This document shows, one piece after another, positions 43,938 through 57,857 of a stretch of DNA of 64,000 bases; the first letter of the stretch is position 1, and each line of letters opens with the position of its first letter. The DNA lies in the NCBI RefSeq assembly GCF_019603315.1, contig NZ_CP080649.1:573501-637500 (forward strand), given 5' to 3'. The stretch comes from Ruficoccus sp. ZRK36. Lineage in GTDB: Bacteria > Verrucomicrobiota > Verrucomicrobiia > Opitutales > Cerasicoccaceae. The notes beneath the pieces were generated by a model, which made no database searches, was not told where the DNA came from, and worked only from the letters and a program-made list of their open reading frames with translations. A program made the position numbers and the translations under genes.

Positions 43938-44001
43938 TTAGCCACAGAGACACAGAGAGCACAGAGTTATTTTTTCTCAGTGTCCTCTGTAACTCAGTGG
44001 C
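43938..44001. repeat. Self-complementary CACAGAG-type repeat
   Basis: Left arm from 43938 (TTAGCCACAGAG, then CACAGAGAGCACAGAG) and right arm 43976-44001 (CTCAGTGTCCTCTGTAACTC, then AGTGGC) are imperfect inverted copies around a T-rich spacer. The same CACAGAG motif forms the inverted repeats at 49493-49520 and 49931-49963. It sits between menF and metG. Confidence 0.65.
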
Positions 44002-48376: not shown

Positions 48377-49477
48377 ATGAAGACACTTAAATTTGCGGTA
48401 CTGCCCGGCGACGGCATCGGGCCTGAAGTAATGGACGCCACCCTCGCCGTGCTCGAGGCTGCCACCAAGCCCGAGGGCATCGCCCTGGAGTTCACCCACG
48501 CCGACGTCGGCGGCATCGCCATCGACAACCACGGCACGGCCCTGCCCGAGAGCACGCTGGAGGTCTGCCGCGGCGCAGACGCCATCCTCTTCGGATCCGT
48601 CGGTGGCCCGAAGTGGGAAAACCTCCCCCCGAAGGAACAGCCCGAGCGCGCCGCCCTGCTGCCCATCCGCAAGGCCTTTAACCTCTTCGCCAACATCCGC
48701 CCCGGCCTCCTCTTTAAGGAACTGGTGGACGCCTCCCCGCTGCGCCCGGACAGCATCCCCGAAGGGATAGACATCGTCTGCATCCGCGAGCTGACCGGCG
48801 GCATCTACTTTGGCCAGCCCAAGCAGACCACGACGCTGGAAGACGGCGACGTGCAGGCCGTGGACACCATGGTCTACAAGGTCAGCGAAATCGAGCGCAT
48901 CGCCGAGGTCGCCGCCGTCACCGCCAAGGCCCGCGGCGGTCGCGTCTGCTCCGTGGACAAGGCCAACGTCCTCGAAACCTCCGTCCTCTGGCGCAAGACC
49001 GTGGTCGAATACTTTAAGAAGAACCACCCGGACCTCGAGCTGAGCCACCTCTACGTGGACAACGCCGCCCAGCAGCTCGTGCGCGACCCGAACCAGTTCG
49101 ACGTCATCTTCACCGAAAACATGTTCGGGGACATCCTCAGCGACGAGATGGCCATCATCTGCGGTTCGCTCGGCATGATGTCCAGCGCCAGCCTCGGCAC
49201 GGACAACAACTCGCAGGGCCTGCCCTACGGCCTCTATGAGCCAGCCGGTGGCACCGCCCCGGACATCGCCGGTAAGGGCATCGCCAACCCCTGCGCCCAG
49301 GTCCTCTCCGCCGCCATGATGCTGCGCTACAGCTTCGGCCTCGACGCCATCGCCGACCGCCTCTCCGCCGCCATCCGCAAGGCCGTCGAGGACGGCGTGC
49401 GCACCGGCGACATCGCCTTCGGTAAGACCCCCGTCGGCACTAAGGCCATGGCCGACGCCATCGTCGAACGACTGTAA
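48377..49477 (+). CDS. leuB: 3-isopropylmalate dehydrogenase
   Basis: 366 aa, normal length. It oxidises and decarboxylates 3-isopropylmalate in leucine synthesis using NAD. It starts LKFAVLPGDGIGPEVMDATL; substrate-binding arginines are in NLFANIRPGLLF and CIRELTGGIYFG; VDKANVLETSVLW and the metal-site DILSDEMAIICGSLG follow, then the cofactor block GLYEPAGGTAPDIAGKGIANP. No other leu gene is adjacent. An inverted repeat of the CACAGAG family begins 16 nt after the stop. Confidence 0.97.
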   Translation: MKTLKFAVLPGDGIGPEVMDATLAVLEAATKPEGIALEFTHADVGGIAIDNHGTALPESTLEVCRGADAILFGSVGGPKWENLPPKEQPERAALLPIRKAFNLFANIRPGLLFKELVDASPLRPDSIPEGIDIVCIRELTGGIYFGQPKQTTTLEDGDVQAVDTMVYKVSEIERIAEVAAVTAKARGGRVCSVDKANVLETSVLWRKTVVEYFKKNHPDLELSHLYVDNAAQQLVRDPNQFDVIFTENMFGDILSDEMAIICGSLGMMSSASLGTDNNSQGLPYGLYEPAGGTAPDIAGKGIANPCAQVLSAAMMLRYSFGLDAIADRLSAAIRKAVEDGVRTGDIAFGKTPVGTKAMADAIVERL

Positions 49478-49492
49478 ACTTCTTTATTTTTT

Positions 49493-49963
49493 AACCACAG
49501 AGGGCACAGAGAACACAGAGCGCCATGAGCGAAGGTTACGCCATCATCATTTCTGCCGTCTTAGGCATATTGAGTTTGGTTGGTTCGCATCAGTTTGCGG
49601 CTTGGCGCGACCGCGAAAACAAGAGAAGAGAGCAGCGTATTAATTATCTCATCTCCGTTTATAGAAAAATAACAAGAGGCGCGAATTCATCAGGGTTTGT
49701 CCCCGGGCTAGCGGACGATGTTCAGCAGGCCCTCGCAGACATACAAGTTTTCGGCTCTGTAGATCAAATCAAGTTGGCGCGCGAATTTGCCCTAGACCTT
49801 GCGAATAAAAAAGTAGCCCGAGCAAATCCAATCATAAGTTCCTTGAGAGACAGTTTGAGGAAAGAGTTAGGATTAACGTCCCTCGATGACGAATGGTTCT
49901 TTTTGACAATTCCGAAACAATGACCCTTTCGCTCTCTGTGCTCCCTGTGCCCTCTGTGGTTTA
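49493..49963. mobile_element. Possible inverted-repeat-flanked gene cassette
   Basis: Left repeat 49493-49520 and right repeat 49931-49963 are inverted copies: AACCACAGAGGGCACAG is shared exactly, and 26 of 28 positions match. Between them lies one AT-richer gene with only 4 nt on the left and 7 nt on the right. No transposase is present. It could be a non-autonomous mobile unit or a gene captured between two repeat copies. Confidence 0.5.
49525..49923 (+). CDS. Small membrane-anchored protein of unknown function in an inverted-repeat cassette
   Basis: 132 aa. The N-terminus IIISAVLGILSLVGSH is one membrane segment. A basic stretch (WRDRENKRREQRINYL) then leads into a cytoplasmic helical part of about 95 residues. 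Codon use and base composition are clearly more AT-rich than in leuB and alaS on either side, suggesting foreign origin. I recognise no family. A phage or defence accessory role is possible but only a guess. Start and stop are only a few bases from the flanking inverted repeats. Confidence 0.75.
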   Translation: MSEGYAIIISAVLGILSLVGSHQFAAWRDRENKRREQRINYLISVYRKITRGANSSGFVPGLADDVQQALADIQVFGSVDQIKLAREFALDLANKKVARANPIISSLRDSLRKELGLTSLDDEWFFLTIPKQ

Positions 49964-49982
49964 TTCATAAAATCTTATTCCC

Positions 49983-52646
49983 ATGACCTCCGCTGAACTT
50001 CGTCAGAGCTTTCTGGACTTCTTCGCCTCGAAGGAGCACACGGTCGTGCCCTCGGCTCCGTTGATGCCGAGCTCGCCCAACCTGCTCTTCACCAACGCGG
50101 GGATGAACCAGTTCGTCCCGTACTTTCTGGGCGAGCAAAAGGCCCCCTACCACCGTGCCTGCGACACGCAGAAGTGTATCCGCGCCGGGGGCAAGCACAA
50201 CGACCTGGAGGATGTCGGCTTTGACACGTACCACCACACGTTCTTCGAGATGCTCGGGAACTGGTCGTTCGGGGACTACTTCAAGCGCGAGGCGATCGAG
50301 TGGGCCTGGGAGCTGCTGACCTATGTCTGGGGCCTGCCCAAGGAGCGCCTCTACGCCACCGTGTACCGCCCTGACGATGGCGACCCGGCGGAGTTTGACC
50401 AGGAAGCCTACGACATCTGGAAGGAAGTCTTCGAGGCCGATGGCATGGACCCGAAGAAGCACATCCGCACCGGCGGCAAGAAGGACAACTTCTGGATGAT
50501 GGGCGACACCGGCCCCTGTGGCCCGTGCTCGGAGATCCACATCGACCTCACTCCGAAGGGCGACACCGGCGGCGAGCTTGTCAACGCCGACAGCCCGTAC
50601 TGCATCGAGATCTGGAATCTCGTCTTCATGCAGTTCAACGCCGAGCCCGACGGCTCCTTCAAGTCCCTCTCCGCCACCCACGTGGACACCGGGATGGGCT
50701 TTGAGCGCGTGGCAGGGATCTTCGCCACCACTGACGGCTTTAAGGATTTCACCAAGCCTCCGAGCAACTACGACAGCGACCTGTTCGGCGATCTGTTTCA
50801 CCACATCTCCAACGCCTCGGGGCGCACCTACACCGCTACCGTCCCGGCCAACCGCGACGACCTCTCAGCGCAGGAAATGACGGACGTCATCTTCCGCGTA
50901 CTGGGTGACCACATTCGCACCCTCTCCTTTTCCATCGCCGACGGCATCCTGCCCGGCAACGAAGGCCGCAACTACGTGCTGCGCCGCATCCTGCGCCGCG
51001 CCGTCATGTTCGGCAAGCGCATCAACCTGCCGAAGGGCTTCTTCGCCAACCTGGTGCAGCCGCTGGTCACGAAGATGTCCCCCTTCTTCCCTGAGCTGGA
51101 GGAGCAGCAGGAAGTGATCCTTAAGGTCATCCGTCAGGAGGAGCAGGCCTTTGAGCGCACGCTCGACCGCGGGCTCCAACTCTTTGACAAGTTCACCCTC
51201 GACGGCACCGGCATCACCGGCGAGCAGGCCTTTATCCTCTACGACACGTATGGATTCCCGCTGGACCTGACGCAGATCATCGCCCGCGAGCGCGGGCTCG
51301 ACGTGGACTGCGCGGGCTTCGAGTCGCAGATGGAGCAGCAGCGCCAGCGCGCGCGCGCCGCCCAGAAGAAGGACATCATCTCGGTCTTTGAGGATGGCGG
51401 AAAGGTCCACTCCACGCAGTTCGTCGGCTACAACTGCAGCGAAGTATGCGGCGTCGAGACACACCTCGTCGGCACCTTTGACGGAGAAAACGAGAGCTAC
51501 CTGATTTTCGCACAGTCACCCTTTTACGCAGAAATGGGCGGCCAGGTCGGGGACACCGGCGTGGCTGAGATCGGCGGCCAGCGTATCGAAATCCTGGATA
51601 CAATCACCGACCAGGCCGGGCATGTCCTCCACAAGGCAGCGAAGTCCGACAGCTACAACCAGCTCATCGGGCAGCCCGCCACCCTGACGGTCGACCTGGA
51701 GCGTCGCCGACAGATCCAGCGTAACCACTCCGCCACCCACCTGCTGGACTGGGCCCTGCGCGAGCAGCTCGGCGCTCACATCCGCCAGGCCGGATCGCTC
51801 GTCTCGCCGGGCCACCTGCGCTTTGATTTCAGCCACTTCGAGGCGCTCAGCCCCGAGAAGCTGCAAGCGATCGAGGACATGATCAACGCCAGGATCATCG
51901 CCAACGACACCGTCAACTGGTACGAGATCCCGCTGGAGGACAAGCCCGAGGACGTCGTCTCGGTCTTCGGCGAGAAGTACGGCGCCATCGTCCGCGTGGT
52001 CGATATCGGCGGCTACTCCAAGGAGCTTTGCGGCGGCACCCACGTGCGCGCGACCGGCGAGCTGGGGCTGTTTAAGATCACCTCCGAGTCGGCCATCTCT
52101 GCAGGCACACGCCGTATCGAGGCCGTAAGCGGAAGCAGTGCGGTCGAGCTGGCCTCACAGAACTTCAGCCGCCTGCACAGTATTTCCCGCAAGCTCTCCT
52201 GCCGTCCCGACGAGCTTGAGGAGCGCCTGCAAACCTTGCTCGATCAACGGACCGAGCTGGAGAAAAAGCTCCGCAACATGGAGCAGAAACAGGCCGCTGC
52301 ACAGGGCGGAGACCTGCTCTCCCAGGCGGTCGACAAGGACGGCATCAAGTGGATCGCCGCCTCCGTCAAGGTCGCCAACCCGAACGACATGCGCGGGCTC
52401 GCCGTGGACATGCTGAAGAAGCTCGGCGAGGGCGTGGTCGTGCTCGGCGGGGACTTCGGCGGCAAGGTCACAGTGCTGGCCACCTGCTCCCCCGAGGCCA
52501 TCAAGCAGGGCCACAAGGCTGGCGACATCGTCCGCGATCTGACAGCCGCACTCGGCGGCAAGGGCGGCGGCAAGCCGGACTTCGCGATGGGTGGCGGCAA
52601 GGATGCTGACAAACTCGACGAAGCCCTCAAGGCCCTGTTGAAGTAG
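49983..52646 (+). CDS. alaS: Alanyl-tRNA synthetase
   Basis: 887 aa class II synthetase that charges and proofreads tRNA-Ala. The catalytic domain has LLFTNAGMNQFVPYFLG, DVGFDTYHHTFFEMLGNWSFGD and NLVFMQF. The editing domain has RNHSATHLL and CGGTHVRATGELGLF, which hold the zinc ligands. The C-terminal coiled coil and DHHA1 region end with GGGKPDFAMGGGKDADKL. The start MTSAELRQSFLDFFASKEH is canonical. It lies just right of the inverted-repeat cassette. A very strong terminator follows. Confidence 0.98.
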   Translation: MTSAELRQSFLDFFASKEHTVVPSAPLMPSSPNLLFTNAGMNQFVPYFLGEQKAPYHRACDTQKCIRAGGKHNDLEDVGFDTYHHTFFEMLGNWSFGDYFKREAIEWAWELLTYVWGLPKERLYATVYRPDDGDPAEFDQEAYDIWKEVFEADGMDPKKHIRTGGKKDNFWMMGDTGPCGPCSEIHIDLTPKGDTGGELVNADSPYCIEIWNLVFMQFNAEPDGSFKSLSATHVDTGMGFERVAGIFATTDGFKDFTKPPSNYDSDLFGDLFHHISNASGRTYTATVPANRDDLSAQEMTDVIFRVLGDHIRTLSFSIADGILPGNEGRNYVLRRILRRAVMFGKRINLPKGFFANLVQPLVTKMSPFFPELEEQQEVILKVIRQEEQAFERTLDRGLQLFDKFTLDGTGITGEQAFILYDTYGFPLDLTQIIARERGLDVDCAGFESQMEQQRQRARAAQKKDIISVFEDGGKVHSTQFVGYNCSEVCGVETHLVGTFDGENESYLIFAQSPFYAEMGGQVGDTGVAEIGGQRIEILDTITDQAGHVLHKAAKSDSYNQLIGQPATLTVDLERRRQIQRNHSATHLLDWALREQLGAHIRQAGSLVSPGHLRFDFSHFEALSPEKLQAIEDMINARIIANDTVNWYEIPLEDKPEDVVSVFGEKYGAIVRVVDIGGYSKELCGGTHVRATGELGLFKITSESAISAGTRRIEAVSGSSAVELASQNFSRLHSISRKLSCRPDELEERLQTLLDQRTELEKKLRNMEQKQAAAQGGDLLSQAVDKDGIKWIAASVKVANPNDMRGLAVDMLKKLGEGVVVLGGDFGGKVTVLATCSPEAIKQGHKAGDIVRDLTAALGGKGGGKPDFAMGGGKDADKLDEALKALLK

Positions 52647-57100: not shown

Positions 57101-57369
57101 TTTGCCCGAAACTCGGTCAGGCCGAGCGCCTGCCCGCCGTCCGGGGTGTAGCCCCTGACATCATCGACCACGAGGCGGTACGAGTAGGGGTTGAAGTAGA
57201 TCGCATCGATCTTCACCTCCCCGGCAATCGTGTCATTGACCTTTGACAGGCCGACAAAACGGATCAGCAGGGGCACGCCCCAAAAGCCGAACACCGTATA
57301 GAATAACAGGAGCGACGCCAGAGTGATAGCGACGCGCTTAGGCCATTTACGCCGGGGTTTATCCGCCAT
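54145..57369 (-). CDS. Large AsmA-like DUF748 protein
   Basis: 1074 aa from the ATG at 57369. One N-terminal membrane helix (VAITLASLLLFYTVFGFWGVP) anchors a long beta-rich periplasmic part with repeated patterns such as LDLVIDKDGKVNIESAL and VNGAIRLDPLSSDGSIRIDKI. This is the DUF748/AsmA pattern of proteins thought to bridge or transfer lipids between membranes. An Ala/Pro-rich linker sits near residues 650-690. The C-terminal 110 residues have DGTEVTLTPGVMKAKLVEVQ and an RADEVRDFILSK region resembling an OmpA-like motif. The gene follows a lipoprotein and a barrel protein on the same strand, fitting envelope maintenance. Confidence 0.82.
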   Translation of the reverse strand: MADKPRRKWPKRVAITLASLLLFYTVFGFWGVPLLIRFVGLSKVNDTIAGEVKIDAIYFNPYSYRLVVDDVRGYTPDGGQALGLTEFRANFDFLSLFRENLRFEEIYFGEPSLDLVIDKDGKVNIESALASLQDQMNETLEEQAEKAKEDDTPFEIPVIEIGSFQVENASIGARIENLQQPFERDIENLSFVMKDIRTSPDRDNPYHFVFDTQAGEQVEVNGAIRLDPLSSDGSIRIDKIHLPDFYKLSDGMLGFDLAGGDMSFSAEYAFRPVRQQPELFIQKGHFLLDGLELRPAGEDEPFQTLERFEMSGIEVYLFRGAVSIERVDVINGMLKVVRDKAGVLNLMRYMLPEEQQAQLEQQVAQEQAQDKANRQFVFGLVADQQDIGLAFTSAWQQLQDMVQVTWDLKVATLHVENQNLVLVDEVPASPVNVTLGDINLDVSDMSNQGTTPFPFDLSLSVNESGKVTAKGTFTAEPPGTDFEYNVSGIDLSVFSPYVEASSPAVLHSAVLANKGTLKASFPEQALPTVETRFNVSLSDFDATVGAPLYPEGKSLRVKATRMANSGRVSANFPADGDPVVSTRADAAVDGFSLGLGDAEPPLSWTKLSIAGIDMATHPVKAKIDTITLEQFKADVVRDANGDLNLLALAPQQPTASDNAEAPTAEQADQPGEKAPADAPSEAAPAAQPDVDLAAVGVNRFVLKKGTVNVTDESVKPASAFTLSQIEVDAGPFSLVPDAMTDMDTTLTLESGGAGTIAVKGSAQLMDPMANSTMTVKLDSVPMAGFSGYAVQAVGSPMTGGAFSGEFAYNIKTDELKGDNKMQIKKVRFGKRVPDSEAPKLPLELGIAVMENRNGIIDLNVPVDGSLDDPQFTLNHVVQTALGNIFEKVVTAPFALLGSAFGSSGEAPPSQVAFAPGSALLPPASEEPLTLLAQALYDRPALALKLVPSVDMEKDVADFRQDFVQDRIGELVAQGEDEEDAIETLFEQAFPEGLPPKPDGTEVTLTPGVMKAKLVEVQEVPDTALRGLARQRADEVRDFILSKQQIDASRVTENPPDGGFAKDGAKVSFEIGVAK

Positions 57370-57452
57370 ATTGGCAAAAAAGCTAGGGGCATTTGGCTGC
57401 CGGTGCAACCGTTAGAGCCATAAAAATACAGCCCGTCCCTATTCCTTACACG

Positions 57453-57857
57453 TTAGAACAGGCCGGAACTCTCAGGCTCCCACGTAGCATCAACCATCTG
57501 CTTGCGCTCCGGGCAATCGTCCTGAACGGCGCTCAGCGTGAGGATTCCGTCGTCGCGCTTGTAGGTGTAGATACCGGTCGTGCCCGAGCACAGGCTCAGA
57601 CGCGAATCAAACTCCAGGCTCACGTGCCCGCTCTGGGGATAGTAGGCCCAGCCCGTCAGGTGCCGGGGCTTGTCACCGGGCACGAGGAGCTCAAAGCGGT
57701 TGTTATCCTGAAAGTTAAGGGTACTACCGTCGGCAGGGTTGACCCACTTGCCAGCCAGCGTCGCTGGCGGCGGGTGCCGGAAAGAGTCCTCAGACTTACA
57801 ACCGGCAAGCCAGGCCAGGGCTGAGAGCAGAATCGAAAATACCAATACTTGACGCAT
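57453..57857 (-). CDS. Lipoprotein of unknown function
   Basis: 134 aa. The signal is a lipobox type, FSILLSALAWLAGC, with Cys20 expected to be lipidated. The mature part has AGKWVNPADGSTLNFQDNNRFEL and about eight beta strands, suggesting a small lipocalin-like barrel. Two further cysteines (LSLCSGTTG and DDCPER) may form a disulfide. It lies 57 nt after the beta-barrel gene and 83 nt before the DUF748 gene on the same strand. Confidence 0.85.
   Translation of the reverse strand: MRQVLVFSILLSALAWLAGCKSEDSFRHPPPATLAGKWVNPADGSTLNFQDNNRFELLVPGDKPRHLTGWAYYPQSGHVSLEFDSRLSLCSGTTGIYTYKRDDGILTLSAVQDDCPERKQMVDATWEPESSGLF

Follow-up and report, generated by a model that had tools for sequence, protein, structure and literature searches.

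The question raised by this locus is whether a short gene lying between two inverted repeats, in the interval between leuB and alaS, is a mobile unit, and what may have brought it there. The window, i.e. the whole stretch of DNA that was analysed, is 64,000 nucleotides long and corresponds to positions 573501-637500 of contig C1 of G000, the window's own genome. An earlier note on this DNA had described the gene and its repeats, and had proposed a mobile unit composed of inverted repeat, gene and inverted repeat, perhaps moved by an enzyme acting on the repeats. The features are listed in Table 1.

Table 1. Positions in the window of the inverted arms, the enclosed gene and the neighbouring genes
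Feature	Position	Strand	Basis or remark
leuB, left neighbour	48377..49477	+	LeuB identity 98% to G002, 86% to G003
Left arm, AACC end and three CACAGAG cores	49493..49520 (extended 49483-49523)	+	26/28 against right arm; similar arm at the junction in G002 and G003
Enclosed gene (putative cargo), 132 aa, low GC, hypothetical protein	49525..49923	+	ORF list
Right arm, inverted copy	49934..49961 (extended 49931-49971)	-	Repeat search and 26/28 match
alaS, right neighbour	49983..52646	+	Same neighbour in G002 and G003 (by eye)

The inverted CACAGAG-type match that had been described is borne out. The left arm agrees with the reverse complement of the right arm at 26 of 28 positions, while the best inverted match in each of 20 simulated (Markov-1) 64-kb windows is 19 to 22, and in the repeat search the arms widen to 41 nt at 83%. 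The left arm, AACCACAGAGGGCACAGAGAACACAGAG, may be written as AACCACAGAG-GG-CACAGAG-AA-CACAGAG, i.e. three CACAGAG cores at a spacing of 9 nt, and the right arm has the three cores at the same period with one copy altered. The gene is as tightly enclosed as had been stated: 4 nt separate its ATG from the left core, and between its stop and the right arm there are 7-10 nt, according to how the arm is drawn. In the predicted fold of the + strand of the region the arms are paired, and the fold is more stable than those of 100 shuffled sequences (z = -4.4). An inverted-repeat hairpin with an ORF in its loop is present, and it adjoins leuB and alaS rather than lying inside a 23S rRNA helix.

The gene is AT-rich, as claimed, with a GC content of 45.9% against 61.2% for the window and a third-position GC of 0.48 against 0.90 in leuB. 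Read by eye, its product begins with a transmembrane segment, followed by a charged helical part. The claim that the product belongs to no recognisable family also holds: there is no match in Pfam or PADLOC, the two matches in NCBIfam are at chance level and far under the cut-offs, and Rfam gives no convincing match either; an ordinary known family was therefore rejected, and no family match identifies the protein as S23p. A homologue is found in one of 53 relatives (G026, 35% identity), and two more occur in plasmid records, of Burkholderia ubonensis and Dongshaea marina (32-38%). Searches with peptide patterns found no further homologues in GTDB contigs, and a phage or viral origin was rejected because phage records contained no relative and such patterns revealed none in viral contigs. 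Since none of the three relatives of the protein is surrounded by clear arms, the window gene is best seen as cargo from a wider accessory family rather than as a component of the mechanism.

The junction was compared in the congeners G002 and G003 (in G001, leuB is at the contig end). In both, leuB is followed by a similar inverted repeat and then by alaS, and the gene is absent; the hairpin loop is AT-rich and 22-31 nt long, depending on how the arms are drawn. The three cores and the linkers of the left arm are identical in G000 and G002, with wholly different loops. In the 400-620 nt displayed after leuB, an alaS start could not be made out by eye in any of six more distant family members; G005, one of the six, carries a hairpin of related type there. 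Because the inverted repeat without the gene occupies the junction in two congeners, the gene sits in the loop of a hairpin resident in the genus, and the gain or loss concerned the gene and not the entire unit. The search for an empty site therefore had a divided outcome: the gene is absent in two congeners, but the inverted repeat remains there with a short loop. The same applies to the proposed mobile unit, whose layout recurs with unrelated genes, as described below, and whose gene is missing in two relatives, while the relatives keep the repeat. Among the three congeners read, only G000 holds the gene in the junction loop. The simplest history is one in which an old hairpin of the genus acquired the gene in its loop in the window species; a loss of the gene in both congeners is possible as an alternative.

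With moderate confidence, we lean towards placing the locus, as a non-autonomous member that carries a gene, in a family of hairpins whose inverted arms consist of short tandem repeats. Under the mechanism that goes with this reading, the element would spread as a hairpin, in single-stranded DNA or RNA; a GxxExxY protein, a RecB/Cas4-like nuclease, would recognise the iterated arm and act on the hairpin; other small genes would be carried between arms of that type; and the window gene would have come by loop exchange in the resident hairpin. At the mRNA level the stem would serve as an RNase III-type site, and it is proposed that insertion between the genes of an operon may for this reason be tolerable, as with the intervening sequences (IVS) of 23S rRNA. 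On this reading the locus is a non-autonomous cassette from a REPIN/IVS-like family of hairpin elements, probably served in trans by a GxxExxY nuclease. We infer that the locus is mobile, including through an enzyme that acts on the repeats.

Arms of the same type occur both as gene-less hairpins and as small-gene cassettes. Among 40 loci of the genus, picked for carrying the repeat, CACAGAG-type arms surround a 66-aa membrane-type ORF 3' of pheS in G000 and enclose ORFs of 101, 77 and 123 aa in G003, and the ten pairs of G002 contain no ORF longer than 42 aa. When the four non-nuclease ORFs in arms were compared with Pfam, two gave matches below the cut-off and two gave none. The same arm type also surrounds a GxxExxY gene, in G003 (L300) between gatA and gatB, and in G001 (L328) at the same site with the same left arm, which differs from the left arm of the window in only 2 linker bases. 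In both cases the ATG follows directly on the left arm, the frame crosses the right arm and the stop is just past it; this gene is not cleanly within the arms. The suggestion that other genes be sought in the same repeats was thus a fruitful one, yielding unrelated small genes and, with them, the nuclease gene. G002 has another cassette (C64:94955-95347), whose arms are of ACCGCAGAGG type and which holds a 78-aa ORF; the matching place in the window, about 57369-57493, lacks it. At the position 5' of gatB in G000 (L393), an ORF that looks unrelated by eye is present, this position being occupied by the GxxExxY element in G001 and G003 and by a hairpin with a different core in G002.

The site just 3' of pheS, read by eye, is in many different states across ten genomes of the family. 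Besides the 66-aa cassette of G000, there are three hairpins with different cores in G001, G002 and G003 and an S23-type ORF in G008, the states in G004 and G005 being less clear. The remaining three genomes, G007, G006 and G009, have arms beginning with GAACAGAAGG in common. The element measures 462 nt from arm to arm in G007, with a GxxExxY gene inside; in G006 it spans 266 nt and its GxxExxY sequence lacks the middle part, and in G009 it is down to 121 nt, still opening with ATGCATCCG as at the start of the G006 gene. Complete elements could become gene-less hairpins by shortening, as in this series.

To assess the association of arms with gene families in the order, an arm score was defined as the best inverted repeat between the 200-nt flanks on the two sides of a gene. 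The GxxExxY family (TIGR04256) and the S23 family (TIGR02436, a four-helix bundle) are each present in about half of the 87 sampled genomes (43 and 41, respectively). Among the surveyed genes, which are the better-scoring family matches and lower ones taken by list order rather than at random, with some close relatives among them (the GxxExxY set having extra copies from six wholly searched genomes), a score of at least 13 is reached by 66 of 95 GxxExxY genes and by 53 of the 71 S23 genes; none of the 29 ParE toxin genes reaches it, and among 2353 other ORFs 18 do. Since the control ORFs were drawn from repeat-rich loci, this background is, if anything, high. The scoring misses arms that lie inside the open frame, as in L300 and L328, or nearer than the start of the profile, and the family fractions are therefore, if anything, low. 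Some of the 29 GxxExxY genes scoring below 13 are still armed (L300, L309 and L317), and others have no arms.

The two families differ in the repeat unit of their arms. With arms scoring at least 15, the best lag is 7 in 31, 8 in 7 and unassigned in 3 of the 41 S23 elements, and 8 in 10, 9 in 15, 10 in 11, 11 in 2 and unassigned in 25 of the 63 GxxExxY elements. From these counts, the length of the repeat unit goes with the gene family. The arms of the window locus, with CACAGAG at period 9, fit the proposed GxxExxY class of iterated arms, which has about three 7-mer cores at a period of 8-11. GxxExxY arm similarity drops with protein distance (rho = -0.415, 58 elements, reached in none of 500 permutations), and the relation is weak for S23 (rho = -0.079, 40 elements, 22 of 500), where the observed values omit nearly identical protein pairs and the permutations include them. 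For example, the proteins of L349 and L350 are 28% different and their arm similarity score is 0.89. Shared descent of the entire unit would also yield such a correlation, which therefore shows that gene and ends travel together, rather than recognition. GxxExxY occurs in eight plasmid records, and none was found in phage records. As a separate observation, the S23 genes of the order (L412-L441 and L444-L483) often have inverted arms, mostly of period 7 and with many different cores, like the rRNA intervening sequences.

The GxxExxY protein is a candidate for the enzyme. In 94 aligned proteins, D (98%), ExK (90/99%), Q (96%) and Y (96%) are conserved, the latter two four columns apart (QxxxY); judged by the RecB/Cas4 nucleases, we take these residues to be an intact active site. 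The protein of L300 matches PF13366 (PDDEXK_3) at 1.6e-43, and its Cas4 match is below the cut-off. No cognate gene was found in the window genome, where both GxxExxY matches have arms of CGCAAAG/CGCGAAG type, and none of the three matches in G016 (one of them a fragment) has CACAGAG arms despite 161 copies of the repeat in that genome. Among the top-ranked papers of the open-access literature, no description of GxxExxY genes in iterated inverted repeats was found, and the passages that name the family are passing mentions.

The CACAGAG arm itself is widely distributed. When up to 2 mismatches are allowed, the arm pattern occurs at 17 places in G000, several of them probably by chance, against 1 for the reversed control pattern. 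The stricter pattern (1 mismatch) is present in 13 of the 87 genomes of the order, with 17+16 copies in G002, 6+6 in G003 and 85+76 in G016, and the control has 0 matches. At least 120 stretches of GTDB contigs contain an exact 30-nt pattern (27 fixed bases); the 80 titles listed, nearly all of metagenome bins, include Planctomycetes, Acidobacteria, Chloroflexi, Gammaproteobacteria, Gemmatimonadetes and Methanosarcinales. Of the adjacent arm pairs within 700 nt in 120 such cross-phylum loci, 54 (in 49 loci) point inward, 11 outward and 4 are on the same strand, and the inner distance of the inward pairs is at most 40 nt in 18, 41-200 nt in 30 and larger in 6. Between the two arms of one hairpin the 2-nt linkers often differ, and the cores are kept. 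Among the 6392 ORFs of the 120 loci (each of at most 8 kb), home-made profiles found neither GxxExxY nor S23, the GxxExxY profile being one that does recover L300 and L328.

Similarly built hairpins around many members of two known but unexplained gene families point to an overlooked kind of small bacterial mobile element. A tentative and in our opinion rather doubtful extension is that GxxExxY and S23 are the mobility proteins of two parallel hairpin classes, each reading its own arm period (about 9 and about 7 nt), which would disperse gene-less hairpins, capture small cargo genes like that of the window and cross phyla without DDE or HUH enzymes or target duplication.

The hairpin might instead be a regulatory or mRNA-processing element that the host keeps between the genes of an operon, in which case the gene would have entered the loop through rare illegitimate recombination and there would be no dedicated enzyme. 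The better-than-shuffled fold of the region is consistent with this, as are the position of hairpins between housekeeping genes and the different cores at the same junction across species. We nevertheless consider it unlikely, because an iterated core in contigs of many phyla, small genes recurring within the arms, and arms tied to two gene families with family-specific periods are all unexpected for a simple processing site.

Ordinary homologous recombination may also be invoked, swapping loops and genes through the dispersed, nearly identical arms of 27-31 nt with no enzyme specific to the element. The arms are indeed dispersed in the genome, and the G000 and G002 junctions combine an identical left arm with entirely unlike loops. 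As a full account it is quite unlikely, since it does not account for how the arms themselves spread, why they bound GxxExxY and S23 genes, or why arm and protein are correlated; however, homologous loop exchange may have been the last step at the window locus.

MITEs and TIMEs are short inverted-repeat units that have no transposase of their own and may carry genes, and the window cassette is like them in these respects. A MITE-like origin, as passenger of a DDE or HUH transposon that has terminal inverted repeats, is nonetheless highly improbable, for although inverted ends, dispersed copies and internally shortened forms agree with it, the ends are iterated 7-mers, one of the enclosed genes codes for a PD-(D/E)XK nuclease, and, unlike in MITEs and TIMEs, no target duplication above that in permuted pairs (lengths 4 to 8) was found in the 63 GxxExxY and 41 S23 elements. 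The target duplication that had been suggested as a sign of mobility thus failed to appear in the related elements, and none is seen by eye at the window locus. For Thiomargarita, it has been suggested that MITEs arose from a PD-(D/E)XK_2 element (PMC4853749).

For our preferred reading, that of a gene-carrying hairpin with iterated arms, the closest known systems are the IVS and the REPINs. In the relevant sections of PMC4990558, the Coxiella IVS is presented as a selfish element that sits in a helix of 23S rRNA, is excised by RNase III and carries an S23p ORF with tandem heptamers (GACAGAT) just 5' of it; Ralph and McClelland (1993), as cited there, proposed that the IVS ORF serves mobility, and S23 proteins are given as having no known function. 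The window locus resembles the 23S rRNA IVS of Coxiella and Leptospira, as these sections present them (PMC4990558), in that the loop of an inverted-repeat hairpin contains a small gene, and the S23 family occurs in period-7 inverted arms in the sampled order as well. Unlike an IVS, the window hairpin lies between protein genes, its arm period is 9, it encloses a gene other than S23, and arms matching its own go with the GxxExxY nuclease family. From the pairing of the arms in the fold, excision of the cassette from the transcript by RNase III, as in IVS, is predicted.

REPINs are described in parts of PMC3116915 as inverted-repeat hairpin doublets tied to RAYT transposases and proposed to be non-autonomous mobile DNA. 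The likeness to the REPIN-RAYT system, so described (PMC3116915), lies in dispersed hairpin doublets together with a gene family linked to the same repeats, and in the favoured inward orientation (from the cross-phylum loci). In contrast to that system, the gene in the arms codes for a RecB/Cas4-like PD-(D/E)XK nuclease, whereas RAYT is a tyrosine (HUH) transposase; tandem 7-mer cores make up the arms in place of REP palindromes; and other genes are carried as cargo. A third comparison may be made with the TAACTGA heptamers of Beggiatoaceae, cyanobacteria and Bacteroidetes, for which the sections concerned of PMC4679880 suspect horizontal spread with no evident mechanism. They are likewise tandem heptamers in the intergenic space of distant lineages but, unlike the window arms, are direct repeats 5' of genes, one of 169 sets being indirect by the same sections (PMC4679880). 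The words S23 and GxxExxY are absent from the text of that paper.

The interest of the locus is in the wider family, with two gene families that have their own arm periods and with cargo genes like that of the window. The family-dependent arm period provides a concrete hypothesis for both GxxExxY and S23, namely that the protein reads the arm. The rRNA intervening sequences, dispersed hairpins and orphan small-gene cassettes are thereby joined in one picture, which is one of how very small genes might move between the genes of an operon without breaking them.

In a census, 16 periodic inverted repeats turned up in 198.6 kb of G002, and 224 kb of G000 had 3. Several of these are probably due to chance, having weak periodicity or a long inner distance, and the window cassette is the only convincing one of the three in G000. 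Some further arrangements of repeats were noted. In G016, L257-L274 are composite islands with several kinds of iterated repeats, apparently nested. A contig titled as a Chryseobacterium gleum MAG (L148:2462-3010) has three head-to-tail units of about 176 nt with CACAGAG arms at their bounds. A lone ACACAGAGAGCACAGAG site is present at 43950-43966 of the window (G000:C1:617450-617466), beside a methionyl-tRNA synthetase-like ORF.
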